Source: a virus | IMG/VR virus record: IMGVR_UViG_3300009151_000331 | Location: 1-25,842 of that record | Reading direction: 5' to 3' (one strand) | DNA length: 25,842 nt | In this document: positions 7,092 to 25,842 of the stretch, piece by piece | Position numbering within the stretch: the stretch's first letter is position 1 | Layout of the letters: each line of letters starts with the position of its first letter | The notes under the pieces: generated by a model | What the model was told of the DNA's origin: nothing | What the model saw: only the letters and a program-made list of their open reading frames with translations | The model's database searches: none | Program-made: the position numbers and the translations under genes

Positions 7092-7092
7092 T

Positions 7093-10100: not shown

Positions 10101-10517
10101 GATTATAAGATGTTAACTGATAGTGCTATACTAAACAGCGTAGTGTTTAAACCATTGTTTGGTGCTAAAGCTGCTGCTGCACTAAGAGGAACAATTAAAG
10201 TAATTAAAAATTCTGCAACAAATGCCAGTGATAGTGAAATTCGTAGCGCAACATTGACTGCTATGAATAATTATTTCAATATTAACAATTGGGACTTTGG
10301 AGATACTTTTTACTTTAGTGAATTAAGCGCATACATACACAATCAAATTGGGGAGTATGTTAGTTCATGTGTACTAGTACCCAATGACCCAACAATGAAA
10401 TTTGGAGATTTATATGAGATTAAATGTTTACCTTACGAAATTTTTGTAAACGCAGCAACTTCAAATGATGTACTTGTTATTGCGGCCCTCACACCCGCCG
10501 AATTACAGATAGCATAA
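7143..10517 (+). CDS. gp6: Baseplate wedge subunit gp6, enlarged
   Basis: 1124 residues against 660 in T4. The N-terminal 110 residues are strongly gp6-like: FGVNDWKTIYQTFQQADF, TLRKSFIDYLRIYYPETFND, SSEFIALLDVMAFMGQGLAF, NDLNTRENFIDTAERRDSVI and LVSYTPKRNLTAEG. A second signature, near residues 405-450, reads ETLADIKQRAPSRYYTQ then RMVNGEDYNNFPY, matching the gp6/J-type segment. The C-terminal 125 residues carry NSVVFKPLFGAKAAAAL, SDSEIRSATLTAMNNYF and FGDTFYFSELSAYIHNQ. gp6 dimers link the six wedges into the inner baseplate ring and drive closure around the hub. About 450 extra residues sit between the second signature and the C-terminal domain, rich in Asn, Tyr, Thr and Ser, apparently beta-rich insertions. 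Weak AAAGAGAA sequence precedes the start; the neighbours gp25 and the giant gene are 51 and 27 nt away. Confidence 0.92.
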   Translation: MATSSRQSALFGVNDWKTIYQTFQQADFRSYDYETLRKSFIDYLRIYYPETFNDYIESSEFIALLDVMAFMGQGLAFRNDLNTRENFIDTAERRDSVIKLANLVSYTPKRNLTAEGYLKVTSIRTTQNITDLNGFNLSNIPILWNDPANPNWLEQYNTVINATLINTQRVGLPANSAQILGVKTDEYTLQIPAGTSPVVPFSTTVNGMNMNFELCSVSTVGEDYVYEIPPAPTNQFNMLYRNDKLGYGSPNTGFFFYFKQGTLQNFDFNYQNQIANQVLDIGAIQGVNNTDTWLYQISQTNGTYGLWIKVDNIYANAYLQTQNSVRKIYSVNSRFNDQVSYVFGDGVFSEIPVGNFRAYVRAGNALTYTIQPTQIQNLTVTMNYVSRVGRVETLTIGLSLQTPVTNAQARETLADIKQRAPSRYYTQNRMVNGEDYNNFPYTLYSSIIKSKAINRSSVGVSKNLDLLDPTGKYSSSNSYSNDGGVWLDDTDGYALLNITNLSDIQTFLNDTLANILGDNKSLQYYVQNYPRYNTTISSDDNLVYWHTSTVDANSTSGYFYELLNGNDTPVPIGTYSTYNLKYLTKGALIKFIAPDSYYFDSNNRLVYGVAGPSNITSIWTTVLNVIGDGYNNGLGQFANGTGPVTLNKYVPQGAIITTVIPAFQNTLPNTVSNECIIRLELQQNFTLVFNNALTIVQDRWSVDPTSQPGYFVKFTSTGYNRYTVSYKSLNYYFGSVADTRFTYEAGKLVYDPFSGIILQDFISVLPTNTQPNSNYPLAKAVTSSIIGQTVESDGYINDFEVQVASIDVNNRTVVDNPDFFYDITGYVTGNTNIGIYAFFEEIQDAINLTRTELISTSMVAYQYATATDVDVVKYDYPEGQLFYAYTDNIFYITVQDPTITTPYYTLVKQPQYSMKPGRQGLQFQYRHNSNNTTRIDPATTNIIDLYVVTQAYYTEYQNWIQDTTGTVPMPTRPTINDLTTEYSKVQDYKMLTDSAILNSVVFKPLFGAKAAAALRGTIKVIKNSATNASDSEIRSATLTAMNNYFNINNWDFGDTFYFSELSAYIHNQIGEYVSSCVLVPNDPTMKFGDLYEIKCLPYEIFVNAATSNDVLVIAALTPAELQIA

Positions 10518-10544: not shown

Positions 10545-10710
10545 ATGGCAACAAGAATTAGAACACTAGATTTTCTACCAGAGATATTTAAAACCACAAC
10601 CAATGCTCAGTTTTTGGCAGCAACATTGGACCAGCTAGTTGCTCAACCTAATACTGAAAAAATTCAAGGTTATATTGGTAGTAGATTTGGTTATGGAATA
10701 AATGCCAATG
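10545..10710 (+). other. N-terminal wedge-type segment of the giant protein
   Basis: Residues 1-55 contain LDFLPEIF (8-15), FLAATLDQLV (23-32) and GYIGSRFGYG (42-51). I recall this arrangement at the start of large structural proteins after gp6 in marine T4-like phages. It is the part most likely to dock to gp6 or gp10-type partners. No structural homology to T4 gp7 can be shown by eye. Confidence 0.5.
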
Positions 10711-13700
10711 ATTATTATGTAACTGAACCTACTAAAATAAGAACTGATTATCAATTAGATCCAGGAGTTGTTTTCTTAAAAGAAAACGATACTACTGCAA
10801 AAGATTTTATTAGCTATCCTGGTATTATAGATGCATTGAATCTCAGAGGTGGCATAACAGATAACAATAGTAGATTGTTTAGTAGTCAAATTTATTCTTG
10901 GGATTCTTTTACTAATTTAGATAAAATAATAAACTATAATCAGTATTACTGGTTGCCAACAGGACCTGAACGTGTTACAGTACAACCTAGTGCAGTTTAT
11001 ACTGAAGCTACTTATGTAGTTGAATCACAACCTGCTGATTACTTAATAACATCTGAATCATTAGCTGATGCTGAAGCTAACCCAACATTAACATTAATTC
11101 GCGGCGGAACTTATAAATTTATTGTAAATCAAAATACTAAATTTTGGATACAAGGTGCACCAGGTATCACAGGATTTAGTCCAACTCAAACTAATTTACA
11201 AACCCGTGATGTATATGGAGTTACTAATAATGGTGCATCAGACGGTACTATTACATTTAATGTACCACAAAAAAATGCATTAGCTGATTATATTTTTCCT
11301 GGTGAAAATACAGTAGGTGTTGTTTCTACACTTCCGTATAGTCAAGTCAACGGCGCTTACGTAAATGACATAGGTGGCATCGATGGAATTACCGCATTGG
11401 ATGGATTGACACTAATGTTTTATAACACTGGTGAAAATGATTTAGGTACCGAGACTAATTTTTACCAAATTGCATTAACCGGCGCAGCTAATAACCCTGT
11501 TATAGCATTGACTTTAGGCGATGCTATTCCAAATGAGCAAAAAATAACTGCTTTATATGGGGTTGAGTGGATCAATAGACTTTTCTATAGAAATAATACA
11601 GGTTACATACAATTAGAACCATATAATAGTCCAATATTAGATACATTGTATTATCAAGATGATACTATTTCTACCAGAGTAGGCATTATTAAACTAGTTG
11701 AAAATAATAGTACAAATCAAATTAATGTTATCACAGATATACTAGGTAAAAAGCAATATACTTCACCTAATGGAGTAGTATTTACTAATGGACTGAAAGT
11801 TATATTTCAAGGAAATATATTTCCTGATACTTATAAAAATGTTGAATACTACGTAGAAGGGGTTGGTACTAATATAGAGTTACTAAATGTGACCAATTTA
11901 GTATCACCGGGACTATTTGCATCAGGTGAATATACTCCATGGGACACAACAGCATGGGATGTTGGAAATTATGATTCTAGTCTATACGTGCCTGTAAATT
12001 CAGATTACATAACTATTGCTAGAAATGCAATTAATAGAAATGCTTGGTCAAGAAGTAATCGTTGGTTTCATATCGATGTTATCAATGCTACTGCCGCGTA
12101 TAATAATAATCCAGCATTAATAACAGAATTTACTACTGACTCTAATAAAGCAAAACGACCTATTATTGAATTTTATCCAAACTTAAAATTATTTGATTCT
12201 GGTTCAGTAGGAAAAAGCCCAGTAGACTTTTTTGATACTAGAACAACTGACGCACTTACATATGTAGCAGGACAAACTGGATACTATCCAGATGTAGCAG
12301 GTTGGACAACATATAATGCAGTAATAGCACCAGTGACTGGAGCAATTACTAATAGAACAGCAACTACAACTTATGCAGTTACTAATCAGATTTTGTTGAG
12401 TAGCACAGCTACCTTGCATATTAACGATACTATAAGTTTTGGCGGTACTGTATTTGGTGGTATAATATCCGGAACTACTTATTATATAACTACTATCAAT
12501 GGTAATCTAATAACTATATCTAGTATCAAAGGTGGATCAGCGTTTGTTCTAACCACTGGCAGTGGCACAATGACTACCTCTATATATCCATATTCTACTA
12601 CCATAACAGTTCCTACTAGCGGAGTATCTGGGTTATTTGAAGTTAATCAATATATAACAGATACCACCGAATTATTACCTTCTGTTACTTTAATTAGTAA
12701 TGTTTCTGTTGCAGGTTCAAATACAATTATAACAGTTACTTGGTACAATCAATCAATAGTCAATGGGACTTCTGTTGCATCTGTTGTTACAGGAGATACT
12801 CCATTAGATAACTACGCACTTTTTGACGGTGCAAGAATTGTATTCTCGGCTGACACTACGACAAATATACGAAATAAAATTTATATAGCAAGATTTTCAA
12901 CTACTACTTATAATGGTACACCATTGATTACTTTGTTTGAAGCTGAAGATGGTTTGGTACTACCAGATGAACAAACTGCTGTATATCGCGGATATAATAA
13001 TATAGGTAAAGATTTCTACTTTGATGGTGCATATTGGTATGCTGGACAACAAAAGATCACATTGAATCAACCTCCAAAATTTGATATATTTGATGAAAAT
13101 GGTGTTAGTTTTGGTGATCCTTTAGTATACACTAGTACATCATTTACCGGTACAACATTGTTTAGATATGGAATAGGTACTGGTACTGATGACATTTATT
13201 TAGGTTTTCCTATTCGCTATAGTTCAGTAAATAATATTGGAGATATTAGTTTTGATGTATCTTTAAATTTAGATACCTTTAACTATGTAAACGGGTCAAC
13301 AGCGATAACACAAAATGTTAACACTGGGTATGTTTATAATTACGATACACGTACTAATTACGTAAGACAATTAGGCTGGCAAACTGCGGTATCTCCTAGC
13401 GCACAATATCAAATATTTGAATTTGATTGGACTGCATTATCACCAGTGTATATTTTTACTTGTGATGTTGCCCCAATGAGTGCAGCAAAAACAAATTGGC
13501 CTACAATACAAGTATACATTAACAATCATTATATACCTAATACTGACTATACAGTAACAACTACTGATAATACTACTATAGTTAATATTCCTGTTATTGA
13601 TGCAGTAGAAACTGTAGTACAAATTTTAATATTAAGTGACCAAATAAGCAATACTGCTTATTATCAAATTCCTGATAATTTGAATAATAATCCATTAAAT

Positions 13701-16700
13701 GAAGATATTACCACTGCTAATATTGGCGACATTCGCGGACAATATCAAAGCATTTTTTACAATAATCCAAACACCACCGGCAAAGTATTTGGACCTAACA
13801 ATTATCGTGATTTAGGTAATTTAGTACCCTGGGGTAACAGAATAATACAGAATAGTGCTTCACTTGTATTGCCCGGCGTATTTTTACGAAATCAAAAACA
13901 TGATTTAACTGATGCATTGTTATACAACAGCAGACAGTATATTACTTTTAAGAATTTATTGATTGATACAGTTAATAATTCTAGCTACAGTACAATGCTG
14001 ACTCCTGCTCAAATGTTAGATGATGCAATCATTCAAATGAATGCATCACGTAACAATGAACAACCTTTTTTCTGGAGCGACATGCTTCCAGCCAAAGCAC
14101 CGTATATTACCAACACCTATAGTTTTGCTAACTCATTAGATACTAGTATCTATCCACTAAGTAAAATATATAATTTTGCCACAGCAAATTACAATAGCGT
14201 TTTAGTATATCTAACTCGTAACGGAAAACAAACACAGTTGATCAAAGGAGTAGACTATACAATAAGTACTACTAGTACTACATTAACTGTTACTACTGAT
14301 TTACAACCAAATGATCAAATTACCGTTAATGAATATAATCAAACATATGGTAGTTATGCACCTAATACTCCTACTAAATTAGGTTTATTTCCAGCGACTA
14401 TTCCTGCAGTAGTTTTAGATACCGCATATAATCCAGAAACATATTTCATAGTAGGACATGACGGATCATTTACTAAATTATATGGAAATTATGATCCAGC
14501 AATCGGCAAACTAATTGATTTCAGAGATCAAGTATTACTTGAGTATGAGACCCGAGTTTACAACAATTTAAAATTAAGTGAGACAGTTCCAGCTGGTTCG
14601 TATGAAGGAGTAATTATTCCAGGCTTCTTTAGAGATACTGATTACTCATACGATGAGTTCTTGCAAATATATAGTGAATCTTTCTTAAATTGGATAGGAC
14701 AAAATAGAATTGATTACAAGACACAATTCTATAACAAGAACAATCAGTTTAGTTACAACTACGTTGACAGTGGTAACAAAATAAATCGCCAACCAATCGA
14801 ACAAGGATACTTCAGAGGATTGTATCTATACTATTACGATACTTCAACCCCGAATCAAACACCATGGGAGATGTTAGGTATATCTAACAAGCCGTCTTGG
14901 TGGGAAACTAGATATGGACCTGCTCCATACACTAGCGACAACTTAGTTCTTTGGGGAGATTTAAGTGAAGGATTAGTTTGGAACAACGGTAATTCTTATA
15001 TAAAACCTAAGTACGCTCGTCCAGAATTATTAAACATCATTCCAGTGGACAGCAATGGAGATTTAGTTTCACCATTGATTTCTATTGTAGGCGCATATGA
15101 TCAAAATGCATTCCAGCGTGATTGGGTCGTTGGAGATGTTGGGCCTGCAGAGTTTAGCTACCGTAGAAGCAGTTCATGGCCGTTTGATTTGATGCGTATA
15201 TTAGCAATAACTAAACCGGCAGACTTCTTTAACTTAGGTGTCGATGTTGATAACTACAAATATAATGTTGAATTTAATCAATACTTAGTAAACAATAGAG
15301 ACCACTTAGTCATAAGTGATATACCAATCTATGGTTCTGGCACGCCTGCAACTAGTTATATCAACTGGATCATTGATTACGAAAAACAAGTTGGGATAGA
15401 TGCAACTACAACCATAACTACATTGTTAGACAACTTAGATGTACGTTTAGTATATCGTTTGGCTGGATTCAGTGATAAAAATCTATTAAAATTCTATGTA
15501 GAAAAAGGTTCTGCTAACAGTAATAACAGTTCATTATTAATACCAGACGAAAGCTATCAAGTACTATTATACGAAAATCAACCGTTTGATAGAATAGTTT
15601 ATAGTGGAGTTATAGTGCAAGTCACAGACCGTGGATATAAAGTATTTGGAAATAGTCAGACTAATGCTTATTTCAAAGTATTAGCACCTAAACCAAATCC
15701 AGCAATTGAGACTATCACAGTTGATACTCTTACAGTAAAGGTAGCAACAGATTTTTATGATAGAACAGTTACGGTTCCATATGGAACTGAATTCTACACA
15801 GTTCAACAAGTATCACAATTCTTAGTAAGCTATGGTGAATACTTGATACAAAAAGGTGTTATATTTGATGAGATAGAAAATGGTATTCCAATCAACTGGA
15901 ATCAAATGATTGCAGAATTTCTATATTGGGCACAAACAGGGTGGGATATTGGTAGTATAACATCTATCAATCCTGCTGCAAAGATACTTTCAATAAGCAA
16001 AGAAAGTTCTATTGTTCAACCATTGACATTACAACAGTTTAACTTTATACTAAATCAAAATCTTTACCCTATATCAGGTACAGATATGTCTGTTGTTCGT
16101 GATGGAACTGCTTTTAGTGTAACAGCATTGAATGAAGGAGATACTATATCATATGGACAATTTAATATTAGTAATATTGAACATGGTATCGTATTCAATA
16201 ACTTAACATTATTCAACGATGTGATTTACAATTTAATTACTGGGTTACGTCAGAATCGCATTATAGTTCGTGGTACAAAAACTGCTGAATGGAATGGCAC
16301 AGTAGATGCATATGGTTTCATTCTCAACCAAGACAATATACAAGAGTGGACTAGGGAAGTAAAATACACTCAAGGTTCAATTGTAAAATATAAAAATAGA
16401 TATTGGACAGCTATAACCATTGTTCAAGCTAAAGAAATTTTTGATGAGCAAGATTGGTTGCAGACAAGCTACGACCAAATACAAAAAGGATTATTACCCA
16501 ACAGCCAAACTCGTTCATATGAAAGCACATTATACTATGATGTTGACAGGGCTAATTTAGAAAATGATGCGGACTTATTGAGTTTCAGTTTAATTGGATA
16601 TCGTCCTAGAGACTATATGGCATTAGCTGACTTGACTGATATTACACAAGTCAATGTTTACAAAAACATGATTAAAGATAAAGGTACGTTAAATGCTGCT

Positions 16701-19700
16701 AGCGCATTCAAAGGTGCAACATTGGCACAAGGTGGAATTGACTACGAATTGTATGAAAACTGGGCTATCAAGTCAGGTGAATTTGGTGGAGTATTGAATA
16801 ACAACTTTATTCAATTCAAATTGAATCAAACTGAATTGACCGGCAATCCTAGCATTGTAGGATTGACAAATGGAGTAGCTATAGATGGTGTACAACAAGA
16901 AGTGCCTATATATAGCGTGTTCAACTATGGTCGACCAATAAACAATGTTGATATACTACCCACAATAGCAAATACATACCCATCTGAATTATATCCTACA
17001 GCAGGATATGTCAATTATGATGATGTCAAGATGGCTAGCTATTATTATTCAGGATTGTCAACTGCACAAAACTCAGTTGGAACTACTATACCAATAACTG
17101 AATTCTATGTTCGTGATTATGCTTGGTTAGCTAACTATTTGTCAGACTGGAAAGTTTATACTCCTGCAAGTTTGGGTTCTGTAATATCAGCACAGAATAA
17201 TCTTAATGGTACAGTAACAATTAGATTTAATCAAGCACACAATCTAACAACTTATCAAATTTTTGCAGTGGTTAACTTTGATGTTGCTATAGACAATTAC
17301 TATATCGTTGCAGCAGTAGTTGATCCATACAGAGTTATAATTAATCTTTCACTAGACCCTAATATAACTAGCTTGACTGGACAAGGAGTTGGTTTCAGAA
17401 TGCAAAATCAACGTGTTGCTACTGCACCTGAAATTATTAATTTACCATTATTGGATAATGAATTCAACAAATTAAAAGTTTGGGTTGATACAAACAACGA
17501 TGGTAGCTGGGCTGTTTATCGTAAGAGTTTAAACTATCAATATAGTAATGAGATCACTGAATTAGGTAGTCAAACATTTGGTAGTGCAGTTGCATACACT
17601 GATACACTAGGATATTTAATTGGTGATAGTAGTGCCGGAACAGTTAACAGATATAGATATTATTCTGATACAAATTCATATAATTCTATTCAAACTTTAA
17701 CACACGGAGCATCATTTGGTTCTAATATATCATATGTTAATGATTTATTTGTAATATCAGAACCAACCGGTTCACCTAATGTTTATATCTATCAATTAAT
17801 AAACACTACTTTAGTAAATACTTTACAATTGTATCAAACAATCTCTGCGCCAGTAGGAGTAACAACTTGGGGTACTTCAACCTCATTGTCTGGAGATCAA
17901 AATTGGTTATACATTTCTGATATAGATAACAATTATGTTTATGTTTATCGTAAATCTGCACTAACAAAACTATATGAATATTCTACTAGAATCACAGTAG
18001 CAGGTCTTGTTAGTGGAGACACGTTTGGATATTCTATCGCAACTGATTATTATGGCGATACTGTTGTAGTAGGCACACCATATAAAGATTATGATGTAAA
18101 TACTCAAAATTATGGTTACACTTATGTGTTCTCTAGAACTGTTCAGAATACAGTTTCAAGAACTAGTAGTCAAGCCTTTATTCCTGTAGTAATTCCTGTA
18201 GCATGGACTCCAACAACAGTAACACAAACCGCTACTGCTACCGATAGTACAACTGACAGAATTACAGTAAGCAGTAGTGCAGGGTTTAACATAAATGACC
18301 CTGTCGTATTCACCGGTACGTTGATATCAGCAGGTGCAATAGCTGCTAATACGGTTTATTATGTCTATGATAAACCAACTAGCACAACATTTAGAATTGC
18401 GTTAACTCGCAATGCAGCATCATACATTCAATTATCAACAGGTAGTGGTAATATGACAGTTACTGTTCAAACTACCCCGTTGTTTGTTTCAGTCAATGGG
18501 ACACTATTAAGTGATAACACCTATGCAATAATTGGTTCTTCGTTGTATGTCTATAGTTCACAATTACCTACAATAAATGCAGGTGATTTAATTAATATCA
18601 GTGGTAGTAATTTCGTATTAACACAAACACTAACCAATGAAGAAACACCAAGAGTTGGTGTTGAATTTGGTATTAGCGTAGATGTCAATCGTTATGCAAA
18701 TGAAATATTGATTGGTGCACCGTACGAATTAAGTGATCAGAATTATGAGGGTGCAGTACACAGATATACTAATGCCGGCGAAAAGTATGGTATGATTGTT
18801 GGCAACACTACTTGTAATATTACGACTCCTAGAACTATTTTGATTAATGGATTTGCTGTAGTATTACCAATTGGTAACGCTACCGCAGCAGCTACTAGTA
18901 TTAATATCGTTTCAATACCAAATGTTTATGCGACTACAATTAATGGCAAATTAGTAATATCATTAGTTGATAGTACTATTGGAATAGCCGGAAACAAATT
19001 GTCATTGTCAGTAGTTAATACTACTACGCTAAGTGAGATAGGTATTACTATTTACAGTCAAACTCAGAAGATAATGTGTCCTCATCCTGCAGGCAGAACT
19101 CAGTTTGGCACAGTAGTAAAATTTGACAAATCATACACTGGATCATTCATTGCAAGTGCTCCTGTTGGTGCACGTTATAGCGCAACAACATTTGATTTTA
19201 CTGACGATGAATTAGACAATGATACAGTATTTGACAACAACGGTACTCAGTGGATAGATATTTTCAACAATGCCGGTGCCGTTTACATGTTTGATTATTT
19301 GTCAGCATACAACGAAAACATAGACAATCCTGGTAATTTTGTATATGCACAAAGTACTAATTCTTTAGATATAGAGTATGGTACTCAACCAAATTTTGGT
19401 ACTGCATTAGATTTCAATAGCAATCATGTAACAATTGGTACACCTAACTTTGTTCCTAATACTGGATACAATGGTCAAGCTATAACTTATGTAAGTCAAA
19501 GTAGCACTCCAGATTGGGCCGTGTATAGAAGTTCTGCACCAGTTGTTGATGTTAATGGAATATTTAATATTCAATTGTTTAGTGCTTTGACTAATGACAC
19601 CTTAGAAAATCTAGATTATATTGATCCGCTTCAAGGAAAATTATTAGGCGCAGTAGCGGAAAATATTGACGTTACATCAAATAATGATCCTGCAGGATAC

Positions 19701-22700
19701 AATAGTCCTACTAGTACTCAAGGTGGTATTATTTGGGCAAGTGATAAAGTAGGACAATTATGGTTTGATACTTCTAATACTAGATTTATGAATTACCATC
19801 AAAATGATGTTACATACAACAGTCAATGGTGGGGTCGTGTGTTTCCTGGCAGTGATGTAGCAGTATATTCATGGATTAGTAGCAACGTACCTCCATCACA
19901 ATATACAGGTCCGGGCGTTCCATACAACATAGATAATTATTCAGTAGGCGGCGTGATTAATGCTGAAGGATTAATTGCCCCTGTTTACTATTTCTGGGCA
20001 AGAAACACAAATATAATATTTGAAAAAATAGGCAAAACGTTATCAGATACAGTATTAGAATATTATATAATACAACCACAATCAACCGGTATAACTTATT
20101 TTGCACCATTATTACCAAGTGTCTATGCATTATACAATGCATTTGCTTATTTTAATGCAAATGATACGGTTCTAAATATTGGATATGCGACAGGAACTAA
20201 TGATGATGTTCCTCACAATCAGTATAGTTTAATTCGTGCTAATTATGCTGATGACTTTTTATCAGGAACCCCAGGGTCTGGTGCTGGATATCAATATCAC
20301 GGGGCAGTAGGCATTGAACAACCAATTGGTTTGTACAATAGAATGCTAGATAGTATGTGCGGTGTTGACAATGCAGGCGGCGTTGTACCTGACCCGCTAT
20401 TACCAAAAGCAGTACAGACCGGTATATTATCTAGACCAAGACAAGGTTTCTTCTATAATAGATTTGGGGCGTTGAAGAATTATCTACAATATGCCAATAC
20501 TGTACTTGCTCAATTCCCGATTGCAGAAATCAGAAACCCAGTGTTTTTAACAGAAACAGGTGAATCATTTGACACAACTGGTTATTGGTCATATATTAAT
20601 TGGTGGGCAACTGGTTATAATAATAATACTAAAGCATCAATACAAGTTCCGCTATATGCAGATTTGTCTACTTTAGAAGTTTCCGCAGGAACAATTGTAA
20701 AAGTAATAGCCAATGGTTCTGGCAACGGAGAAACATACATATATGGTGCAGACAAATTGTGGACAAGAATTGGGTTGGACAATGGCACAATAGAATTCTC
20801 ATCTGTGTTATGGGATTATCCTAGTGCTAGATTAGGGTTTGGTGATAATTTCTTTGATACAACACCTTTTGATTCATATCCTTCAACCGAAACACGATAT
20901 ATTGTCCGCGCATTGAATGAGGAAATATATACTAATGAGTTATTGATTTTTAGAAACAAGAGTTTAATACTATTATTTGAATACATTCAAAGTGAAACAA
21001 TTGAAAGTCAAAATTATTTGACTTGGTTAAATAAAACTTCATTCTTAGATGTTTCACATACGATTCGTGAATTAGTACCAATTGAAGTATTCCGTTCTGA
21101 TAATCAGTTATTTCTAGAAGGATATTTGAATGAGGTCAAACCTTACCATGTTGTAATCAAAGAGTTCTTGTTCAAGTATACTCGTACCGATGTGTTCGAA
21201 GGTGATATAACTGATTTTGATTTACCGGCACAATGGAATGCAAACATTGGTGAATTTGTAACACCTCAGTTAGTTTACAGTGGTGGAGATAGTGTTTATC
21301 AATATCCACCTACAAGTTCAATATGGAATAGTAATGCATATACTGAATGGTATAACAATTACGGATTGAGTATCGGTATATTTGTAGATAAAACTCAATC
21401 GTATATTGGACAAAAAGATTTTCAGATTGGTGTACTAGAATCATATCTGTCATTGAATACAGTATATTGTTATGTTGATAACATTTATGGATTCCCTGTT
21501 AACGGGACTATAACAATTGGGGAAGAACAAATAGGGTATAGTGGAAAAGATTTACTGAACAATCAATTAATTGGGTTGTCAAGAGGGATAAATGGAACGG
21601 CTATAACTACTCATTTGCCGGGTGAATATATCTTTATGGATATTCCTCCTGTGATTATTCTCAATACAGGTAGAAATTATGTAAATCCGCCAAAGATAAC
21701 TGCGTACATTGACACTACAATATATCCTGAGCCTAGAGTTCCTGCTCAATTAGCAGCTATAATGAGTTTGGGTACTGTCATTGGTGTTGAAGTAATCAAC
21801 CCAGGTTCTGGTTATGCGGTATTGCCTAAGATTGTTATCGACCCGGCTTATATACTATCAATCGATAGTAGTCAAGTTAATGTATTAGATAATACCATTA
21901 ACATAAACACAGCACATGATTTACAAACTGGTGATGTAGTAATATATACAGTAGGTTCTGATTCAACAACAATTCAAGGATTAGTTGAAGGACAAGCCTA
22001 TTATGTAAACTTATTAGAAATTACACCATCTCCGGTGTTTGCTCTTTACACAATGTATCAAGAAGCAATTCAAAATCACAATAGAATTGTATTTGGTACT
22101 ACCGGTACAGGAACACAAAACTTCAGTATTGGTGCAGTTGGATATTGTATCACAAATTCAATGCCAATAAGAGAAAATGTAGTAACTTTGAGATTTGATA
22201 GAACCACATATAATTCTCAAGTTATTGATTGGTCACCTGGTGGATTATATGGTTCTTTCTATGCAGGTGATCTACATAACAGTAATCAAATATCATCGTC
22301 ATCTATAAAATTATATGGAGAATATCCTTCTATCGATTCTATATTGGCTAGTGCAGCAGGCGCAACATTTGAAATTTTAGATGCAGAAAATCAACAATCA
22401 TTGACTTGGTCATCTAGAACTAGAAATACAGTACAGACATATGGTTCTAGCTATTCTACTACTGCATATCGCAATGCAATAAGAATCAATCCTAATTCTG
22501 GTGGCGCAGCAGTAGCAGGTGATATTGGTTCTACTGTTGGTTTCTATGTAGGTATGCCAGTCAAGTTTGTAGGATCTACTATTGGTACTACACTAGTTGA
22601 CGGCACTACTTATTATGTAAAATCGTTAGTACAATTGCCAAATGCGTCTAGTACAAGTTCTTTAAACCTTGACATAGGATATAATTACGTAATTACTGTG

Positions 22701-25700
22701 TTAGGTACTACCAATTGGAATAGTGTAGCTGACACAGTGGGTATTACTTATGCAGTGGGTGATGTTATCATTTCAAAATTTACAGCTAGTGGAACAGGTA
22801 CCGCTGCAATATTAGAAGATACTGGTTTTACTATTTCTAATACTGTTGATGTTAATGGTAATCCGGGTGCAGTTTTTGCTCAAAATACAGCTACTATTGT
22901 AACTGCTGGATTAACTTTATATGTTGGTCAACTAACAAATCAAGCTATACTTACTATTAATTATAGTGGATTAAGAAATGCAGTTGCTACTACTGCTACT
23001 ACAAACAATGTAACAGTCTTATTAACACCAACTGGGCAAAATGGAACTGTTGGGTTTTACACAACAATGCCTTTATTCTTTGTAACTAATAGTCAAGGAA
23101 ATAATAAAGCATTTGGTAATATTATAGAAAACAAAATTTATTATGTGTTGACAGTTATAGATTTACAAACATTTACAATGTCCGCCACAAATGAAGTACC
23201 GGTGATGTTTGCCGTTACTGCAACATCGAGTAGCAATAATTCTATTACTTGTGAAAGTACACAAGGATTGACTATTAATGAACCTATCATATTTACTGGT
23301 ACTACATTTGGCAATATAGTTGCAGGCACAACATATTATGTAAGAGAGAAATTTACTAACGGAACTTCATTCTCTATATCAACTTCTGTGAACGGTGAAG
23401 CAGTAGTACTAACTACAACCACTGGTTCTTGTACGCTTAACAGTCAAGACCTCGCAGTACCGTTAATCAATGGGTCTGGTTCAATGACATTGAATGTTAA
23501 TTTACCAGTAAGTCCGGGACAAATTACAGGTCAACAATTTACCTTATATCAAACTTCACAACAGTACAGTGGATTATCGGGTACTATCTCTAATCTGTTA
23601 ACTAGAAGCATATCAGCTACTTTAGCAACCGTAAACAGAATTTGTATCTCTACTTTTAGTGGTGGACTAACTAACATATACAATGGTCTTAAGTTTAATG
23701 TAGCAAAAGACATAGGCGGATTAACTACGACAGGTGGACCATATACCGTTACAGGTACTGGCACTACTGCATTGACTGTAACAGCTACCACAGTCGGTAC
23801 TAATTGGTTAACTGCACCGTTAAGTTTAAATCCTAATTTAACTAGTGTGTTATATGTTGGCATGCCAATATACTTTAGTGGCACTTCGATTGGTGGCGTA
23901 TCATTGAATCTAGTATATTACGTGTACTCTATTGATAGTGCGCCTCCTGCTAATACAGGTAGATTTACTATATCAGAAGATCAATTGTTTGGTACAGTAT
24001 ATAATGTAACTACTGATAGTGGATTAATGACACTAAGTGGTGAAGGTTATATAACTGTAGGTACTAGTTTATTAAATTCTACACAAGCTGCTACTATTAC
24101 TGATAGTTCAACTCCATCTGCTGCTACAATTACAGTAACAAATGGGTCAGCGTTCCCAAATGGTACGTCAGTTGTTCTTAGCAGCACAGGGACTCTACCG
24201 GCACCGTTCAATGTATATACTACTTACTATGTTGCCAATAAAGTTAGCAACACATTTAATTTAGTATATGTTGTAGGTGGGTCAACAATTAAGACTACTA
24301 CTGCTGGTTCAGGTACACATTATGTATTAGAATCACAAGTATCAATGGTACAAGAAGTTGTTACTGATCCTAACTTTGATGTAAGCTATATCTTAGGTGG
24401 ATATAGAATAGTAATCACTAGTGCTGGTCAAGGATACGCAATTGACAATACCGTAACTATAGCAGGCTCTAGTATTGGTGGAACTAGTCCAGCAAATGAT
24501 TTAACACTAACCGCATTAACGATTGATACAATCGGCGGTATCACTTCAGCAATATGTGTTGGTACACCTGCAGGTACTGTTGAAAAATATTACCTTGAAG
24601 TAATATCATCAAATCAAGTAGCAGTATACTCTAATCCAGAACTAACAGCTCCTGTAAGTGGACAAAATTTTGCATATAGTGGAATAACATCTACTACTGC
24701 AACACAAACAGTATCATCATCTGACAGAATTACTGTTACTAGTTCTACTATTTTCAATGTTAATGAACCAGTGGTATTCACTGGAACTGTATTTGGTAAT
24801 ATTGAATTAGGACTTACATATTACATATATGACAAGCCTACTTCAACTACAGTAAGAATATCTACATTGCCGGCACTATTAAGTTCATTGGTACAATTAA
24901 CAAATGCTACCGGGTCAATGACAATGGCATCATCAGGTGACTATGCATTACTACCAGAACCATTCTATTTCAGTCCTAGTATAGTTAAGTTTAATAATCG
25001 TGTATATCAATGTGTTGTTAGTAACAATGATAATGAATTCATCATCGGTAAATGGGAATTATTATCTTCAGACAATCGACATTTAAATGCATTAGACAGG
25101 ATCATAGGTTACTATCAACCTACTGTTAACATGCCGGGTAAAGACCTTACACAATTAGTAAGTGGAATAACATATCCAAATAGTACCTATTTAGGCAATG
25201 CTTTTGCTCCAGCAGATGAATATACTTTAAACACAATATTAACAGATCAAACATTCTATCCAACTGGACTTAATGGACAATCAATAACCTTTAAGGGTTC
25301 TACGTATTTTATAGCATCAAATTCTAGTGATTATTCTTCTATCAATACTAGTACAGTATCCAACTGGACAATTAACAAGTTATCAAATACACCAATCAAT
25401 ATAACTTCTATAATTTATACCGGTGGTACTAATGGTAAATTTATTCTTTCTTCAAATAATAAAGCTACTCCTATATTAGTAAGCGTTGACGGTATTAATT
25501 GGGCAGCAACTGCATTATATAACTCAAATGATCCAATATTGTTAGATTCTTCAGGTGTAACATTAAATTGTGTAACATATTCTAGTATTGCTGAAGTTAC
25601 TGTCGCAGTTGGAAGTAGTATTATTACTTCACTAACACAACCTAATGATAATGTGCCTTATTTATGGGATGAAACATTTACATTTACTAACGGATTTACT

Positions 25701-25842
25701 AATGAATTCAATGGTGTTACGTATGCAAGTACAGCAGGTTTCACCGGTTTTATTGCAGTTGGATTAGGGCAAGCCTCAGCTAGCGGAACAGTTGCACCTA
25801 CAAATTATGGAATAATTTATTCTAGTACTGACGGAATGTCAT
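10545..25842 (+). CDS. Giant multidomain baseplate/adhesin-type structural protein in the gp7 position, 3'-truncated by the window
   Basis: ATG at 10545, 27 nt after gp6, opens a frame with no stop up to the window end: 5099 complete codons plus one base. I translated it throughout and found Asn/Thr/Ser/Tyr-rich, beta-type protein with very few Cys and no membrane segment or signal peptide. T4 has gene 7 (1032 residues, wedge) at this place, and the start (LDFLPEIFKTTTNAQFL, ATLDQLV, GYIGSRF) is of a kind I recall from wedge/structural proteins of marine T4-like phages. In order: N-terminal wedge-type segment (1-60), cupredoxin-like segment (about 183-259), beta module M1 (about 606-682), fibre-type motifs (about 987-1265), aromatic block with WWETRYGPAPYTSDN (about 1350-1490), ChiC-like motif (1941-1971), SLIGYRPRDY block (about 2013-2110), propeller (2343-2986), WWGRVFPG block (about 3045-3200), NEVKPYH block (about 3420-3565), eight more beta modules (about 3768-4797), second ChiC-like motif (about 4808-4837) and Asp-box repeats (from about 4900). 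Probable role: wedge-anchored peripheral protein contacting the host surface. Function is inferred; the frame is directly seen. Confidence 0.85.
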   Translation, partial: MATRIRTLDFLPEIFKTTTNAQFLAATLDQLVAQPNTEKIQGYIGSRFGYGINANDYYVTEPTKIRTDYQLDPGVVFLKENDTTAKDFISYPGIIDALNLRGGITDNNSRLFSSQIYSWDSFTNLDKIINYNQYYWLPTGPERVTVQPSAVYTEATYVVESQPADYLITSESLADAEANPTLTLIRGGTYKFIVNQNTKFWIQGAPGITGFSPTQTNLQTRDVYGVTNNGASDGTITFNVPQKNALADYIFPGENTVGVVSTLPYSQVNGAYVNDIGGIDGITALDGLTLMFYNTGENDLGTETNFYQIALTGAANNPVIALTLGDAIPNEQKITALYGVEWINRLFYRNNTGYIQLEPYNSPILDTLYYQDDTISTRVGIIKLVENNSTNQINVITDILGKKQYTSPNGVVFTNGLKVIFQGNIFPDTYKNVEYYVEGVGTNIELLNVTNLVSPGLFASGEYTPWDTTAWDVGNYDSSLYVPVNSDYITIARNAINRNAWSRSNRWFHIDVINATAAYNNNPALITEFTTDSNKAKRPIIEFYPNLKLFDSGSVGKSPVDFFDTRTTDALTYVAGQTGYYPDVAGWTTYNAVIAPVTGAITNRTATTTYAVTNQILLSSTATLHINDTISFGGTVFGGIISGTTYYITTINGNLITISSIKGGSAFVLTTGSGTMTTSIYPYSTTITVPTSGVSGLFEVNQYITDTTELLPSVTLISNVSVAGSNTIITVTWYNQSIVNGTSVASVVTGDTPLDNYALFDGARIVFSADTTTNIRNKIYIARFSTTTYNGTPLITLFEAEDGLVLPDEQTAVYRGYNNIGKDFYFDGAYWYAGQQKITLNQPPKFDIFDENGVSFGDPLVYTSTSFTGTTLFRYGIGTGTDDIYLGFPIRYSSVNNIGDISFDVSLNLDTFNYVNGSTAITQNVNTGYVYNYDTRTNYVRQLGWQTAVSPSAQYQIFEFDWTALSPVYIFTCDVAPMSAAKTNWPTIQVYINNHYIPNTDYTVTTTDNTTIVNIPVIDAVETVVQILILSDQISNTAYYQIPDNLNNNPLNEDITTANIGDIRGQYQSIFYNNPNTTGKVFGPNNYRDLGNLVPWGNRIIQNSASLVLPGVFLRNQKHDLTDALLYNSRQYITFKNLLIDTVNNSSYSTMLTPAQMLDDAIIQMNASRNNEQPFFWSDMLPAKAPYITNTYSFANSLDTSIYPLSKIYNFATANYNSVLVYLTRNGKQTQLIKGVDYTISTTSTTLTVTTDLQPNDQITVNEYNQTYGSYAPNTPTKLGLFPATIPAVVLDTAYNPETYFIVGHDGSFTKLYGNYDPAIGKLIDFRDQVLLEYETRVYNNLKLSETVPAGSYEGVIIPGFFRDTDYSYDEFLQIYSESFLNWIGQNRIDYKTQFYNKNNQFSYNYVDSGNKINRQPIEQGYFRGLYLYYYDTSTPNQTPWEMLGISNKPSWWETRYGPAPYTSDNLVLWGDLSEGLVWNNGNSYIKPKYARPELLNIIPVDSNGDLVSPLISIVGAYDQNAFQRDWVVGDVGPAEFSYRRSSSWPFDLMRILAITKPADFFNLGVDVDNYKYNVEFNQYLVNNRDHLVISDIPIYGSGTPATSYINWIIDYEKQVGIDATTTITTLLDNLDVRLVYRLAGFSDKNLLKFYVEKGSANSNNSSLLIPDESYQVLLYENQPFDRIVYSGVIVQVTDRGYKVFGNSQTNAYFKVLAPKPNPAIETITVDTLTVKVATDFYDRTVTVPYGTEFYTVQQVSQFLVSYGEYLIQKGVIFDEIENGIPINWNQMIAEFLYWAQTGWDIGSITSINPAAKILSISKESSIVQPLTLQQFNFILNQNLYPISGTDMSVVRDGTAFSVTALNEGDTISYGQFNISNIEHGIVFNNLTLFNDVIYNLITGLRQNRIIVRGTKTAEWNGTVDAYGFILNQDNIQEWTREVKYTQGSIVKYKNRYWTAITIVQAKEIFDEQDWLQTSYDQIQKGLLPNSQTRSYESTLYYDVDRANLENDADLLSFSLIGYRPRDYMALADLTDITQVNVYKNMIKDKGTLNAASAFKGATLAQGGIDYELYENWAIKSGEFGGVLNNNFIQFKLNQTELTGNPSIVGLTNGVAIDGVQQEVPIYSVFNYGRPINNVDILPTIANTYPSELYPTAGYVNYDDVKMASYYYSGLSTAQNSVGTTIPITEFYVRDYAWLANYLSDWKVYTPASLGSVISAQNNLNGTVTIRFNQAHNLTTYQIFAVVNFDVAIDNYYIVAAVVDPYRVIINLSLDPNITSLTGQGVGFRMQNQRVATAPEIINLPLLDNEFNKLKVWVDTNNDGSWAVYRKSLNYQYSNEITELGSQTFGSAVAYTDTLGYLIGDSSAGTVNRYRYYSDTNSYNSIQTLTHGASFGSNISYVNDLFVISEPTGSPNVYIYQLINTTLVNTLQLYQTISAPVGVTTWGTSTSLSGDQNWLYISDIDNNYVYVYRKSALTKLYEYSTRITVAGLVSGDTFGYSIATDYYGDTVVVGTPYKDYDVNTQNYGYTYVFSRTVQNTVSRTSSQAFIPVVIPVAWTPTTVTQTATATDSTTDRITVSSSAGFNINDPVVFTGTLISAGAIAANTVYYVYDKPTSTTFRIALTRNAASYIQLSTGSGNMTVTVQTTPLFVSVNGTLLSDNTYAIIGSSLYVYSSQLPTINAGDLINISGSNFVLTQTLTNEETPRVGVEFGISVDVNRYANEILIGAPYELSDQNYEGAVHRYTNAGEKYGMIVGNTTCNITTPRTILINGFAVVLPIGNATAAATSINIVSIPNVYATTINGKLVISLVDSTIGIAGNKLSLSVVNTTTLSEIGITIYSQTQKIMCPHPAGRTQFGTVVKFDKSYTGSFIASAPVGARYSATTFDFTDDELDNDTVFDNNGTQWIDIFNNAGAVYMFDYLSAYNENIDNPGNFVYAQSTNSLDIEYGTQPNFGTALDFNSNHVTIGTPNFVPNTGYNGQAITYVSQSSTPDWAVYRSSAPVVDVNGIFNIQLFSALTNDTLENLDYIDPLQGKLLGAVAENIDVTSNNDPAGYNSPTSTQGGIIWASDKVGQLWFDTSNTRFMNYHQNDVTYNSQWWGRVFPGSDVAVYSWISSNVPPSQYTGPGVPYNIDNYSVGGVINAEGLIAPVYYFWARNTNIIFEKIGKTLSDTVLEYYIIQPQSTGITYFAPLLPSVYALYNAFAYFNANDTVLNIGYATGTNDDVPHNQYSLIRANYADDFLSGTPGSGAGYQYHGAVGIEQPIGLYNRMLDSMCGVDNAGGVVPDPLLPKAVQTGILSRPRQGFFYNRFGALKNYLQYANTVLAQFPIAEIRNPVFLTETGESFDTTGYWSYINWWATGYNNNTKASIQVPLYADLSTLEVSAGTIVKVIANGSGNGETYIYGADKLWTRIGLDNGTIEFSSVLWDYPSARLGFGDNFFDTTPFDSYPSTETRYIVRALNEEIYTNELLIFRNKSLILLFEYIQSETIESQNYLTWLNKTSFLDVSHTIRELVPIEVFRSDNQLFLEGYLNEVKPYHVVIKEFLFKYTRTDVFEGDITDFDLPAQWNANIGEFVTPQLVYSGGDSVYQYPPTSSIWNSNAYTEWYNNYGLSIGIFVDKTQSYIGQKDFQIGVLESYLSLNTVYCYVDNIYGFPVNGTITIGEEQIGYSGKDLLNNQLIGLSRGINGTAITTHLPGEYIFMDIPPVIILNTGRNYVNPPKITAYIDTTIYPEPRVPAQLAAIMSLGTVIGVEVINPGSGYAVLPKIVIDPAYILSIDSSQVNVLDNTININTAHDLQTGDVVIYTVGSDSTTIQGLVEGQAYYVNLLEITPSPVFALYTMYQEAIQNHNRIVFGTTGTGTQNFSIGAVGYCITNSMPIRENVVTLRFDRTTYNSQVIDWSPGGLYGSFYAGDLHNSNQISSSSIKLYGEYPSIDSILASAAGATFEILDAENQQSLTWSSRTRNTVQTYGSSYSTTAYRNAIRINPNSGGAAVAGDIGSTVGFYVGMPVKFVGSTIGTTLVDGTTYYVKSLVQLPNASSTSSLNLDIGYNYVITVLGTTNWNSVADTVGITYAVGDVIISKFTASGTGTAAILEDTGFTISNTVDVNGNPGAVFAQNTATIVTAGLTLYVGQLTNQAILTINYSGLRNAVATTATTNNVTVLLTPTGQNGTVGFYTTMPLFFVTNSQGNNKAFGNIIENKIYYVLTVIDLQTFTMSATNEVPVMFAVTATSSSNNSITCESTQGLTINEPIIFTGTTFGNIVAGTTYYVREKFTNGTSFSISTSVNGEAVVLTTTTGSCTLNSQDLAVPLINGSGSMTLNVNLPVSPGQITGQQFTLYQTSQQYSGLSGTISNLLTRSISATLATVNRICISTFSGGLTNIYNGLKFNVAKDIGGLTTTGGPYTVTGTGTTALTVTATTVGTNWLTAPLSLNPNLTSVLYVGMPIYFSGTSIGGVSLNLVYYVYSIDSAPPANTGRFTISEDQLFGTVYNVTTDSGLMTLSGEGYITVGTSLLNSTQAATITDSSTPSAATITVTNGSAFPNGTSVVLSSTGTLPAPFNVYTTYYVANKVSNTFNLVYVVGGSTIKTTTAGSGTHYVLESQVSMVQEVVTDPNFDVSYILGGYRIVITSAGQGYAIDNTVTIAGSSIGGTSPANDLTLTALTIDTIGGITSAICVGTPAGTVEKYYLEVISSNQVAVYSNPELTAPVSGQNFAYSGITSTTATQTVSSSDRITVTSSTIFNVNEPVVFTGTVFGNIELGLTYYIYDKPTSTTVRISTLPALLSSLVQLTNATGSMTMASSGDYALLPEPFYFSPSIVKFNNRVYQCVVSNNDNEFIIGKWELLSSDNRHLNALDRIIGYYQPTVNMPGKDLTQLVSGITYPNSTYLGNAFAPADEYTLNTILTDQTFYPTGLNGQSITFKGSTYFIASNSSDYSSINTSTVSNWTINKLSNTPINITSIIYTGGTNGKFILSSNNKATPILVSVDGINWAATALYNSNDPILLDSSGVTLNCVTYSSIAEVTVAVGSSIITSLTQPNDNVPYLWDETFTFTNGFTNEFNGVTYASTAGFTGFIAVGLGQASASGTVAPTNYGIIYSSTDGMS
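11091..11320 (+). other. Cupredoxin-like segment without metal ligands
   Basis: Residues about 183-259 read IRGGTYKFIVNQNTKFWIQG, then DVYGVTNNGASDGTITFNVP. This matches the recurrent R-G-x-T-Y-x-F-x-V ... F-W-I ... G-V-T-N-N-G ... G-T-I-T-F-x-V-P pattern of plastocyanin-like modules in marine phage and bacterial proteins. The His of the usual GHPFWI position is replaced (NTKFWI) and no Cys-x-x-His follows, so copper binding is unlikely; a structural beta-sandwich is inferred. Confidence 0.45.
12360..12590 (+). repeat. YY[VI] beta module, copy M1
   Basis: Residues about 606-682, with FGGTVFGGIISGTTYYIT, then LITISSIKGGSAFVL and TTGSGTMT. It shows the full pattern of the family: a preceding strand, a G-T-x-F-G-x-I turn, T-Y-Y-I, a strand with I-S-S, and a closing G-S-G-T-M-T. 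It lies about 5.6 kb before the next copy. Confidence 0.65.
13503..14345 (+). repeat. Two fibre-type NG..L..G.DYT motifs
   Basis: The first (13512-13640) reads VYINNHYIPNTDYTVT followed by a strand and VETVVQILILS. The second (14205-14340) reads VYLTRNGKQTQLIKGVDYT, then LTVTTDLQPNDQITVNEY. A third copy lies inside the propeller at 18483-18605 (VSVNGTLLSDNTYAI, then INAGDLINIS). This N-G-x-x-L-x-x-x-x-D-Y-T ... L-x-x-x-D-x-I-x-V pattern is common in phage tail-fibre and neck-whisker proteins. Confidence 0.5.
14580..15025 (+). other. Aromatic conserved-looking block in the giant protein
   Basis: Residues about 1346-1493 contain IIPGFFRDTDYSYDEFLQIY, FLNWIGQNRIDYKTQFY, YFRGLYLYYYDTSTPNQTPW, and WWETRYGPAPYTSDNLVLW. 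The high density of Trp and Tyr, and Gly/Pro turns, suggest a folded structural core that I recall from giant structural proteins of marine phages, without an assigned function. Confidence 0.4.
16365..16457 (+). repeat. ChiC-like carbohydrate-binding motif, copy 1
   Basis: Residues 1941-1971: YTQGSIVKYKNRYWTA, then a 10-residue spacer and FDEQDW. The pattern Y-x-x-G-x-x-V-x-Y-x-N-x-x-Y/W-x-A ... F-x-x-x-x-W is typical of CBM5/12 (ChiC-like) folds that bind chitin-type or other polysaccharides. Copy 2 is at 24966-25055. Whether sugar is bound cannot be told. Confidence 0.4.
16560..16875 (+). other. RPRDY / GGVLNNNFIQF block
   Basis: Residues about 2006-2110 carry SLIGYRPRDYMALADLTD, ITQVNVYKNMIKDKGTL, LYENWAIKSGEFGGVLNNN and LTGNPSIVGLTNG. 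It directly follows the first ChiC-like motif, and near the C-terminal end of the visible protein a ChiC-like motif is again followed by a comparable block (LNALDRIIGYYQP, MPGKDLTQLV), suggesting a duplicated pair. Confidence 0.4.
17571..19500 (+). other. Probable seven-bladed FG-GAP-like beta-propeller with inserted modules
   Basis: Seven blade-like segments share F/W-G-x-x-x ... hydrophobic strand ... G-x-P/S ... Y/V-x-V/I-Y: TFGSAVAYTDTLGYLIGD (17574), SFGSNISYVNDLFVISEP (17712), TWGTSTSL with NWLYISDIDNNYVYVY (about 17865), TFGYSIATDYYGDTVVVGTP (18024), EFGISVDVNRYANEILIGAP (18663), QFGTVVKFDKSYTGSFIASA (19104) and NFGTALDFNSNHVTIGTPNF (19392). Between blades 4 and 5 sit a YY[VI] module and a fibre-type motif, and about 300 nt of beta-type insertion separates blades 5 and 6. 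The pattern resembles integrin-alpha-type FG-GAP propellers; no clear DxDxDG calcium loop is seen. Confidence 0.6.
18207..18475 (+). repeat. YY[VI] beta module, copy M2, inserted in the propeller
   Basis: Residues about 2555-2644: DRITVSSSAGFNINDPVVF, TGT, then NTVYYVYDKPTSTTFRI and STGSGNMTVT. It shares RITV(S/T)SS, N(D/E)PVVFTGT, YDKPTSTT and G-S-x-M-T with M9, about 6.4 kb downstream. Confidence 0.7.
19680..20130 (+). other. WWGRVFPG / YFWARN block
   Basis: Residues about 3046-3195 contain GGIIWASDKVGQLWFDTS, QWWGRVFPGSDVAVYSW, PPSQYTGPGVPYN, APVYYFWARN and YYIIQPQSTGITYFAPL. It follows the propeller directly. I recall comparable W/Y/P-rich blocks in giant structural proteins of marine phages, but cannot name a function. 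Confidence 0.35.
20800..21240 (+). other. NEVKPYH conserved-looking block
   Basis: Residues about 3420-3566 carry RLGFGDNFFDTTPFDSYPST, ETRYIVRALNEEIYTNELLI, KTSFLDVSHTIRELVP, GYLNEVKPYHVVIKEFLFKY and DFDLPAQW. This helical-looking stretch is unlike the surrounding beta modules and looks like a folded structural domain, perhaps a second docking site. No family named. Confidence 0.35.
21474..21645 (+). other. GFP..GTI.IG.E.I.Y.G beta motif
   Basis: Residues about 3644-3700 read YGFPVNGTITIGEEQIGYSG then LIGLSRGINGTAITTHLPGE. I recall the combination G-F-P-x-x-G-T-I-x-I-G-x-E-x-I ... G-L-x-R-G-x-x-G-T ... H-x-x-G as a recurrent beta module in phage tail proteins. Confidence 0.4.
21651..21850 (+). 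repeat. Two G-x-x-Y-x-x-x-P-x-I motifs
   Basis: VIILNTGRNYVNPPKITAY (from 21651) and VEVINPGSGYAVLPKIVID (from 21789) follow the same pattern. A third, diverged copy is IVITSAGQGYAIDNTVTIAG (near 24408). These G-S-G-Y-x-x-x-P-x-I turns occur in beta-rich tail proteins. Confidence 0.5.
21846..22135 (+). repeat. YY[VI] beta module, copy M3
   Basis: Residues about 3768-3864, including HDLQTGDVVIYTVGSDST, LVEGQAYYVN and GTTGTGTQNFSIG. The T-G-D-V-V-I-Y and G-T-G-x-x-F ends match the same module type known from bacterial repetitive adhesins; it is one of the more diverged copies. Confidence 0.55.
22467..22680 (+). repeat. YY[VI] beta module, copy M4
   Basis: Residues about 3975-4045: YVGMPVKFVGSTIGTTLV, DGTTYYVKSLVQLPNASS. 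The V-G-M-P-V-x-F-x-G-S/T pattern returns in M7 (YVGMPIYFSGTSIGG), so M4 and M7 are the closer pair. Confidence 0.6.
22980..23200 (+). repeat. YY[VI] beta module, copy M5
   Basis: Residues about 4146-4219: AVATTATTNNVTVLLTPTG, then MPLFFVTNS, AFGNIIENKIYYVLTV and FTMSATNEV. The FGNI turn is shared with M6 and M9. Confidence 0.55.
23211..23450 (+). repeat. YY[VI] beta module, copy M6
   Basis: Residues about 4223-4302: NEPIIFTGTTFGNIVAGTTY, YYVREKFTNGTSFSIS and TTTTGSCTL. It is a near-consensus copy and starts within about 15 nt of the end of M5. Confidence 0.65.
23757..24050 (+). repeat. YY[VI] beta module, copy M7
   Basis: Residues about 4405-4502: ALTVTATTVGTNW, YVGMPIYFSGTSIGG, NLVYYVYSIDSAPP and RFTISEDQLFG. 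It is longer than the consensus because of an insertion before the G-M-P strand. Confidence 0.55.
24085..24320 (+). repeat. YY[VI] beta module, copy M8
   Basis: Residues about 4514-4592: AATITVTNGSAFPNGTSVVL, then YTTYYVANKVSNTFNLVYVV and TAGSGTHYV. The G-S-G-T-H-Y-V end repeats the closing motif of M1 and M2. Confidence 0.6.
24690..24935 (+). repeat. YY[VI] beta module, copy M9
   Basis: Residues about 4716-4797: DRITVTSSTIFNVNEPVVF, TGTVFGNIELGLTYYI, YDKPTSTTVRIS and GSMTMAS. Closest to M2 over its first half; the eight residues YDKPTSTT (24828-24851) are identical, yet five of the eight codons differ. Confidence 0.7.
24966..25055 (+). repeat. ChiC-like carbohydrate-binding motif, copy 2
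   Basis: Residues about 4808-4837: YFSPSIVKFNNRVYQCVVS, then F and KWELL. The core I-V-K-[YF]-x-N-R-x-[YW] is shared with copy 1 (SIVKYKNRYW). A block with LNALDRIIGYYQP and MPGKDLTQLV follows. Confidence 0.4.
25250..25842 (+). repeat. Asp-box (S-x-D-G-x-x-W) repeat region, runs off the window
   Basis: Residues from about 4903 on. Two blades show an Asp-box: ILVSVDGINW (25473-25502) and GIIYSSTDGMS (25809-25841), the latter cut just where W is expected (next base is T). Both follow a strand of the type F-I-x-S / F-I-A-V-G (GKFILSSN; GFIAVGLGQ). Asp-box repeats form beta-propellers and often carry sugar-binding loops. Sialidase catalytic residues cannot be claimed from this part. Confidence 0.6.

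Follow-up and report, generated by a model that had tools for sequence, protein, structure and literature searches.

A Giant Gene Behind the Baseplate Wedge Genes of an Uncultured Phage and Its Relation to the Giant Virion Proteins of RaK2-like Jumbo Phages

The Locus and Its Neighbouring Genes

The stretch of DNA analysed here, referred to as the window, comprises 25,842 bases and is an entire virus record (IMG/VR record IMGVR_UViG_3300009151_000331). All of the features described below lie on the + strand. The 5' end is taken up by an 855-aa open frame without a start (3..2570), which weakly matches the virion structural family phrog_11190 (E 1.9e-5, with no single stretch passing). This frame is followed by a gene for a gp5-like baseplate hub protein of 1343 aa (2593..6624) that is matched by phrog_13211 over residues 28-507; beyond these residues the protein appears by eye to be Ala-rich, with repeated 'GQTLTSGK'-like units. 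The next two genes encode homologues of the baseplate wedge proteins gp25 (149 aa, 6642..7091) and gp6 (1124 aa, 7143..10517; phrog_10646, E 5.7e-258), and profile matches confirm both assignments, which had been made in an earlier note on this DNA. Immediately 3' of the gp25-gp6 pair and on the same strand lies a giant gene of the phrog_10938 family (10545..25841), which begins with an ATG, runs for 5099 codons, and is 3'-open at the contig end. The slot after gp6 is the one occupied by gp7 in T4.

The gene order is shared with cultured phages that carry homologues of the giant gene. The gp6 protein of the window matches 62 phage records, 45 of which contain a place over 80% of its length. 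In PA5oct, Phosso, RaK2, Atu_ph07, and CBB, the giant gene is preceded by an annotated baseplate wedge gene of gp6 size, preceded in turn by a small or gp25-type gene; the large gene that comes before the giant in SCTP-2 and Vibrio phage 2.275.O carries no wedge annotation. The downstream side can be read in L050, a close relative of the window, where the giant gene is followed by a 206-aa gene of the phrog_11259 type whose product is 37% and 38% identical to the protein following the giant in PA5oct and SCTP-2, respectively; a frame of equal length (206 aa) is found downstream of the giant gene in L070. Further downstream in L050, behind fibre-like genes, frames that look glycosyltransferase-like by eye are present at 18163-20701.

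Extent and Coding Signal of the Giant Frame

The open reading frame list and the translation agree that the frame at 10545-25841 is stop-free across all 5099 codons, a length far above chance expectation. Because the window is the whole record, the open 3' end of the frame reflects the contig end only. The frame has also been probed by comparison with L027, a relative on a 303,057-base contig that is 91% identical to the window protein over 5100 residues. Third positions differ in 21-38% of codons in each of 11 codon blocks, while first positions differ in 4-11% and second positions in 1-6% of codons in all 11, indicating that the giant frame is under selection up to the window end. Third-position GC lies between 0.16 and 0.24 across ten blocks of 1500 bases (to base 25544), as it does in the gp6 gene (0.24). 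Thus the single uninterrupted frame described in the earlier note stands, with a coding substitution pattern throughout.

Relatives were collected from IMG/VR using residues 3001-4000 (48 pattern matches, giving 41 loci) and residues 4866-5099 (38 pattern matches, giving 27 loci). Start and stop lie in a single frame in 28 of the 41 loci, which encode proteins of 5694-6886 residues (24 distinct proteins). In 12 of the other 13 loci, the frame continues past the 3' edge of the contig or of the sequence retrieved; in the last, L033, no stop precedes the frame within its stretch. The L027 protein ends at residue 6459, and those of the other closest relatives end at 6796 (L019 and L023) and 6794 (L008), indicating that the window copy is short by about 1360-1700 residues. 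The longest family member has 7756 residues and lies on contig 3300032331_000813, as read from the coordinates of two identically overlapping stretches.

These 28 complete copies, each read through in one frame, rule out a programmed split of the giant gene; together with the substitution pattern, they also make an assembly artefact very unlikely. As far as the contigs tell, neither of the two faults that the earlier note had named as fatal is present: the same frame in 28 of 41 loci speaks against a hidden indel, and the colinearity of the parts with one known protein family speaks against a fusion of unrelated genes. Among 80 more distant loci, two copies are broken: L111 carries an in-frame stop, and L126 is split into pieces that lie in three frames. 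In L172, the frame has an early stop near the contig end. Error and decay are both possible causes of these breaks.

Relationship to the Giant Proteins of RaK2-like Jumbo Phages

Two scanned parts of the giant protein match phrog_10938 with E-values of 1.1e-201 and 5.9e-48, and the N-terminus matches at 1.2e-30. The matched stretches, several in number, lie within positions 22-2131 of the 3324-position profile. Residues 1-2333 have matches in 57 of 50,697 phage records, in none of which does a single place cover 80% of the query. The matches listed (40 of the 57), at 24-29% identity across the aligned parts, are all jumbo phages or pieces thereof, and include PA5oct, Atu_ph07, Phosso, SCTP-2, RaK2, CBB, GAP32, and 121Q. 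A megablast search of the phage records with residues 1-2120 returned nothing. Six isolates (RaK2, PA5oct, SCTP-2, 2.275.O, Atu_ph07, and Phosso) were aligned with the window protein, while the homology of CBB_236 was established by tblastn. The homologues range from 3326 aa (RaK2 ORF070) and 3340 aa (CBB_236) through 3771 aa (Vibrio phage 2.275.O 424), 3807 aa (SCTP-2 gp140), and 3857 aa (PA5oct gp355) to 4449 aa (Atu_ph07 gp180) and 4555 aa (Phosso 294).

Blastp alignments of the window protein with the six isolates form colinear blocks at residues 1-137, ~375-554, ~748-2111, and 2961-3564. Judged by sequence similarity, the window gene is a homologue of the gene for the RaK2-like giant virion protein, with which it shares these core blocks and the slot after the wedge gene. 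In contrast to the isolates, whose proteins have 3326-4555 residues, the window protein has at least 5099 residues and its complete relatives have 5694-7756, with additional sequence inserted between the blocks and with a 71-residue repeat not present in any of the six isolates. Outside this family, few matches were obtained. Pfam gave sub-threshold matches to the giant protein (CBM_5_12, E 0.047; FG-GAP_2, E 0.0096) and no match to residues 3002-6459 of L027. PDB sequence and profile searches returned no solved structure of the family and a single chance-like row, a VirB activator (E 0.02, 0.14).

The earlier note had called the product a structural protein, and mass spectrometry on two cultured homologues supports this. 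The record of PA5oct gp355 carries an 'ESI-MS/MS' note. For CBB_236, Table 4 of PMC5259590 gives 21 unique peptides and 7.72% coverage, and the adjacent row, CBB_237, reads 'Baseplate wedge'. Consequently, the giant protein is a virion protein in cultured relatives.

Domain Architecture

The window protein is built from the core blocks with inserted and appended modules, in agreement with the mosaic make-up suggested earlier. Core block 1 (residues 1-137, 10545..10955) is common to the jumbo-phage isolates and is followed by an inserted beta domain (residues 153-387, 11001..11705) that is predicted, with fair to good confidence, to adopt a cupredoxin-like fold. The best structural match is rusticyanin 2cal (Z 10.1, 2.3 A over 95 residues). 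Residues 150-390 contain no His or Cys, making a copper role unlikely, and a reading of this insert as a copper protein is rejected on that ground. Core block 2 (residues 375-554, 11667..12206; bounds from PA5oct) precedes core block 3, the longest shared block (residues about 748-2111, 12786..16877; bounds from RaK2), and core block 4 spans residues 2961-3564 (19425..21236; bounds from PA5oct).

In the window protein, an iterated profile detects the 71-residue repeat nine times, including one weak copy. Single modules lie between core blocks 2 and 3 (residues 612-678, 12378..12578) and between core blocks 3 and 4 (residues 2568-2640, 18246..18464), and the weak copy is at residues 3782-3857 (21888-22115). 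The remaining six (residues 3995-4087, 4152-4229, 4229-4298, 4419-4497, 4527-4593, and 4724-4794) form one region at 22527..24926. The 28 complete relatives have 3-19 copies (L035, 3; L027, 13) and the open-ended L015 has 24; the same profile finds 0 copies in each of the six isolates. It should be noted that the profile was derived from these very proteins, so its E-values are internal to that set, and that some copies are partial. A search of the phage records with a single repeat copy yielded no hits at E 0.01, the repeat was not found in the other four frames of the window, and Tandem Repeats Finder returned zero rows within the giant gene. Near the end of the window (25140-25841) and in residues 4866-5300 of L027, repeats of the type 'VAVG..G.I..S.DG..W' can be seen by eye, resembling those of beta-propellers.

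Structure prediction was less informative for the core. The model of residues 1-1150, built on an alignment of 27 rows from 26 of 40 loci, has a mean pLDDT of 53.8, with core segments under 50. A deeper alignment (A8) for the compact RaK2 homologue gave a mean pLDDT of 59.4; it used 49 of 58 prepared rows, leaving out L172 for its early frame stop and L165, L169, L176, L093, L106, L107, L015, and L037 for likeness or length. Neither model had a Foldseek match in PDB with an E-value of 0.001 or lower. Fold matches in BFVD include a structural protein of Atu_ph07 and other phage proteins, many of them unnamed.

Relationship to gp7 of T4 and Its Counterparts

The gp7 slot proposed in the earlier note holds as a matter of position, since the gene follows gp25 and gp6 as in T4; homology to T4 gp7 was not found. 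In gene slot, the window gene resembles the genes for T4 gp7 (1032 aa; phrog_964), XM1 gp17 (242 aa), and P2 gpI (176 aa). In contrast to T4 gp7, the window protein is about five times longer even as a fragment and shows no significant sequence similarity. Alignment by hhalign to a profile of seven T4-type gp7 proteins gave a probability of about 1%. Pfam Gp7 and Tail_P2_I (PF09684) matched the KGT-motif stretch (residues 1983-2120, 16491..16904) in 0 of 5 family members, and PF09684 matched 0 of 23 N-termini. The same searches succeed with the controls, as T4 gp7 matches its own domains and P2 gpI matches PF09684 at 6e-56. The T4 gp7 profile, phrog_964, was found in one of nine records (T4 only) and in 1 of 14 control genomes, so that a hit with it, or the lack of one, carries some noise. 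In turn, phrog_10938 was found in the other eight records and in 0 of 14 control genomes; the two do not co-occur in this small nine-record set.

Weaker resemblances were also noted. With deeper alignments, three overlapping versions of the KGT stretch were the top three of 22 windows scored against a gp7/gpI core profile (21.8, compared with 18.05 for the best non-overlapping window), although the probability was 7-8% and the 22 windows spanned residues 1-145, 1260-2120, and 2950-3610 only. In a shallower run, the stretch ranked fifth of 61 windows. The compact RaK2 homologue has predicted N-terminal helices at residues 14-28 and 37-51, modelled with low confidence (block pLDDT 38-49). According to PMC10457771, the gp7 orthologue of XM1 has 242 residues, compared with 1032 in T4, joins the gp6 core bundle through an N-terminal helix-turn-helix, and has parts that bind the tail spike. 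The predicted RaK2 helices would fit a helix-turn-helix of this type, and a helical hairpin and KGT motif may be shared with gp7 and gpI at low confidence. The Foldseek matches listed do not include gp7, which has little bearing on a gp7/TssG/gpI-like fold given that the core segments were modelled at low confidence. Since the sequence tests for gp7 gave no match, the giant protein is not filed as a gp7 member, and its assignment to that family is rejected; most likely, it works in gp7's place.

Giant Proteins After gp6 in Cyanophages

Very large proteins after gp6 are also found in cyanophages. In S-PM2, gp25 and gp6 are followed by p084, a 3048-residue 'virion structural protein', then by a short gene and gp8. 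The gene next after gp6 in ACG-2014f, gp119, is annotated as a baseplate wedge subunit and spans 4225 aa by coordinates, and SynMITS9220M01 083, next after the annotated wedge gene, is annotated as a baseplate wedge initiator and spans 4067 aa by coordinates. The gene after the annotated wedge gene of DSL-LC02 (2514 residues by coordinates) is annotated as a baseplate wedge subunit or initiator, and the one in the same slot of MA10 (1942 residues) as a 'structural protein'. Further along in S-PM2 (L180), after gp8, more very large structural genes lie at 20759-29002 and 33492-40001; one measures 8244 bases, and the other, for a tail fibre, has a length of 10,017 bases.

The cyanophage giants resemble the window protein in slot, giant size, and patchwork make-up. 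In contrast to the window protein, S-PM2 p084 matches phrog_4406, phrog_2885, and further families in the PHROG scan, with no match to phrog_10938, and a count by names finds no cyanophages among the 57 records matched by residues 1-2333. The wedge family phrog_2885 has 4179 positions and is reached by T4 gp7 at E 1.3e-4 over 29 residues; another structural family in PHROGs, phrog_701, has 6136 positions. Residues 3631-3709 of the window protein (79 residues) are 36.7% identical (E 5e-4) to a segment close to the p084 C-terminus in S-PM2, which hints at a possible exchange of modules between such giants. The presence of very large post-gp6 proteins in two phage groups indicates that the idea of a gp7 slot is sound, yet not new in kind. 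A giant gene in this slot is an already known kind of gene, and the novelty that the earlier note saw in its tie to the wedge genes is therefore not upheld, as the tie is present in RaK2-like jumbo phages and cyanophages.

Size Variation Within the Lineage

The C-terminal part of the protein is the more variable. When split into 500-residue blocks, 33 relatives longer than 5600 residues, some of them open-ended, have median identities to L027 of 0.62-0.77 as far as residue 4000 and of 0.43-0.57 thereafter. L019 has about 333 more residues than L027 in its C-terminal part, and its two alignments to L027 share approximately residues 5739-5905 of the latter, as expected from duplication or insertion.

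A scan of viral contigs with the core block found at least 594 related stretches, of which 80 were kept. Both gene ends are in frame in 27 of these 80 loci, and 25 of the 27 encode 4170-5098 residues. A core-block tree has 53 rows. Besides the window, L177, and the six isolates, it takes in 22 of the 28 near relatives that are complete and 23 of these 25 more distant loci; near-identical copies and the two broken loci were dropped. In this tree, the six isolates (3326-4555 residues) stand apart, and a group of 21 rows (4610-5098 residues) is sister to the 25-row group that contains the window (4170-6886 residues). The root is a midpoint and the program warned of long branches among the isolates, making the basal order, and hence the direction of growth, unsure.

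The family is also present on three contigs (L177, L178, and L179) of two bacterial MAGs, assigned to Neomarinimicrobiota and Rickettsiales, where L177 and L178 encode 5265 residues each. Most simply, these are phage contigs that were binned with bacteria; the binning itself could be a hint of the host or a mis-binning.

What is new at this locus is the size of the protein and its added modules, notably the 71-residue repeat without counterpart in the six isolates. No phage baseplate protein of over 5000 residues was found described in the literature consulted, mostly open-access papers (among them the RaK2 paper PMC3622015 and the CBB paper PMC5259590, as well as PMC10457771, PMC6300606, PMC12619734, PMC9723584, PMC3037559, PMC12774648, PMC6102473, PMC6892783).

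Proposed Role and Alternative Explanations

The giant protein is probably an enlarged form of the baseplate-associated giant virion protein of RaK2-like phages, with a gp7-like role in the wedge. One copy would be present per wedge, with its N-terminus pairing with two gp6 chains in the manner of T4 gp7, and the conserved blocks would form the wedge body. The missing sequence similarity to gp7 and the 'head and packaging' label that PHROGs gives to phrog_10938 speak against this reading. The beta inserts and the C-terminal third, which is rich in repeats, are less conserved, with modules gained or lost between close relatives. These parts might project from the baseplate, perhaps as arms serving as spacers or as attachment points for fibres or the host surface. 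Contact with a receptor would be a guess, and dominance of the baseplate by this protein, as the earlier note has it, is likewise a hypothesis.

Alternatively, the product could be a giant peripheral adhesin or fibre connector that merely adjoins gp6, the job of gp7 being done by an unrecognised small protein. The missing gp7 homology and the beta-rich inserts are consistent with such a role, and the N-termini of 6 of 23 members weakly match a wedge-to-fibre connector family (best E 0.0041). However, residues 1-137 and the large middle blocks are conserved across the six isolates amid otherwise variable sequence, and the giant gene occupies the same slot in the five jumbo isolates whose neighbours are annotated as wedge genes, with a parallel in cyanophages, which makes a peripheral role unlikely. 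It is considerably less probable still that a single chain is made and then cleaved by a phage protease into several virion proteins. Head proteins are processed in T4-like phages, and cleavage might leave low peptide coverage like that of CBB_236, but a long protein present in few copies would be poorly covered in any case, and this analysis yielded no evidence of cleavage. That the frame was fused during assembly, or stays open through an error, can hardly be entertained: broken copies exist, yet the complete single-frame copies, the substitution pattern, and the close match to L027 largely refute this.

A bolder form of the preferred reading, a gp7-like wedge protein, is possible but rather doubtful. 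In an uncultured large-phage lineage, a gp7-type wedge protein may have become a chain of up to 7756 residues, its wedge core split and trailed by acquired beta domains and a lineage-specific repeat. About six copies (an assumed number, amounting to over 4 MDa at 110 Da a residue) would then provide wedge, arms, and host-contact surface from one polypeptide. If the protein is a gp7-type wedge part, a conserved component of the contractile tail can carry thousands of inserted or appended residues, suggesting a route to large jumbo-phage baseplates from few genes. The family forms a series of 3326-7756 residues whose short members come from cultured phages of Klebsiella, Pectobacterium, and Pseudomonas, making the question testable in laboratory phages. 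These results are also relevant to annotation, as PHROGs assigns phrog_10938 to 'head and packaging' and many records among the matches listed carry its members as 'hypothetical protein'.
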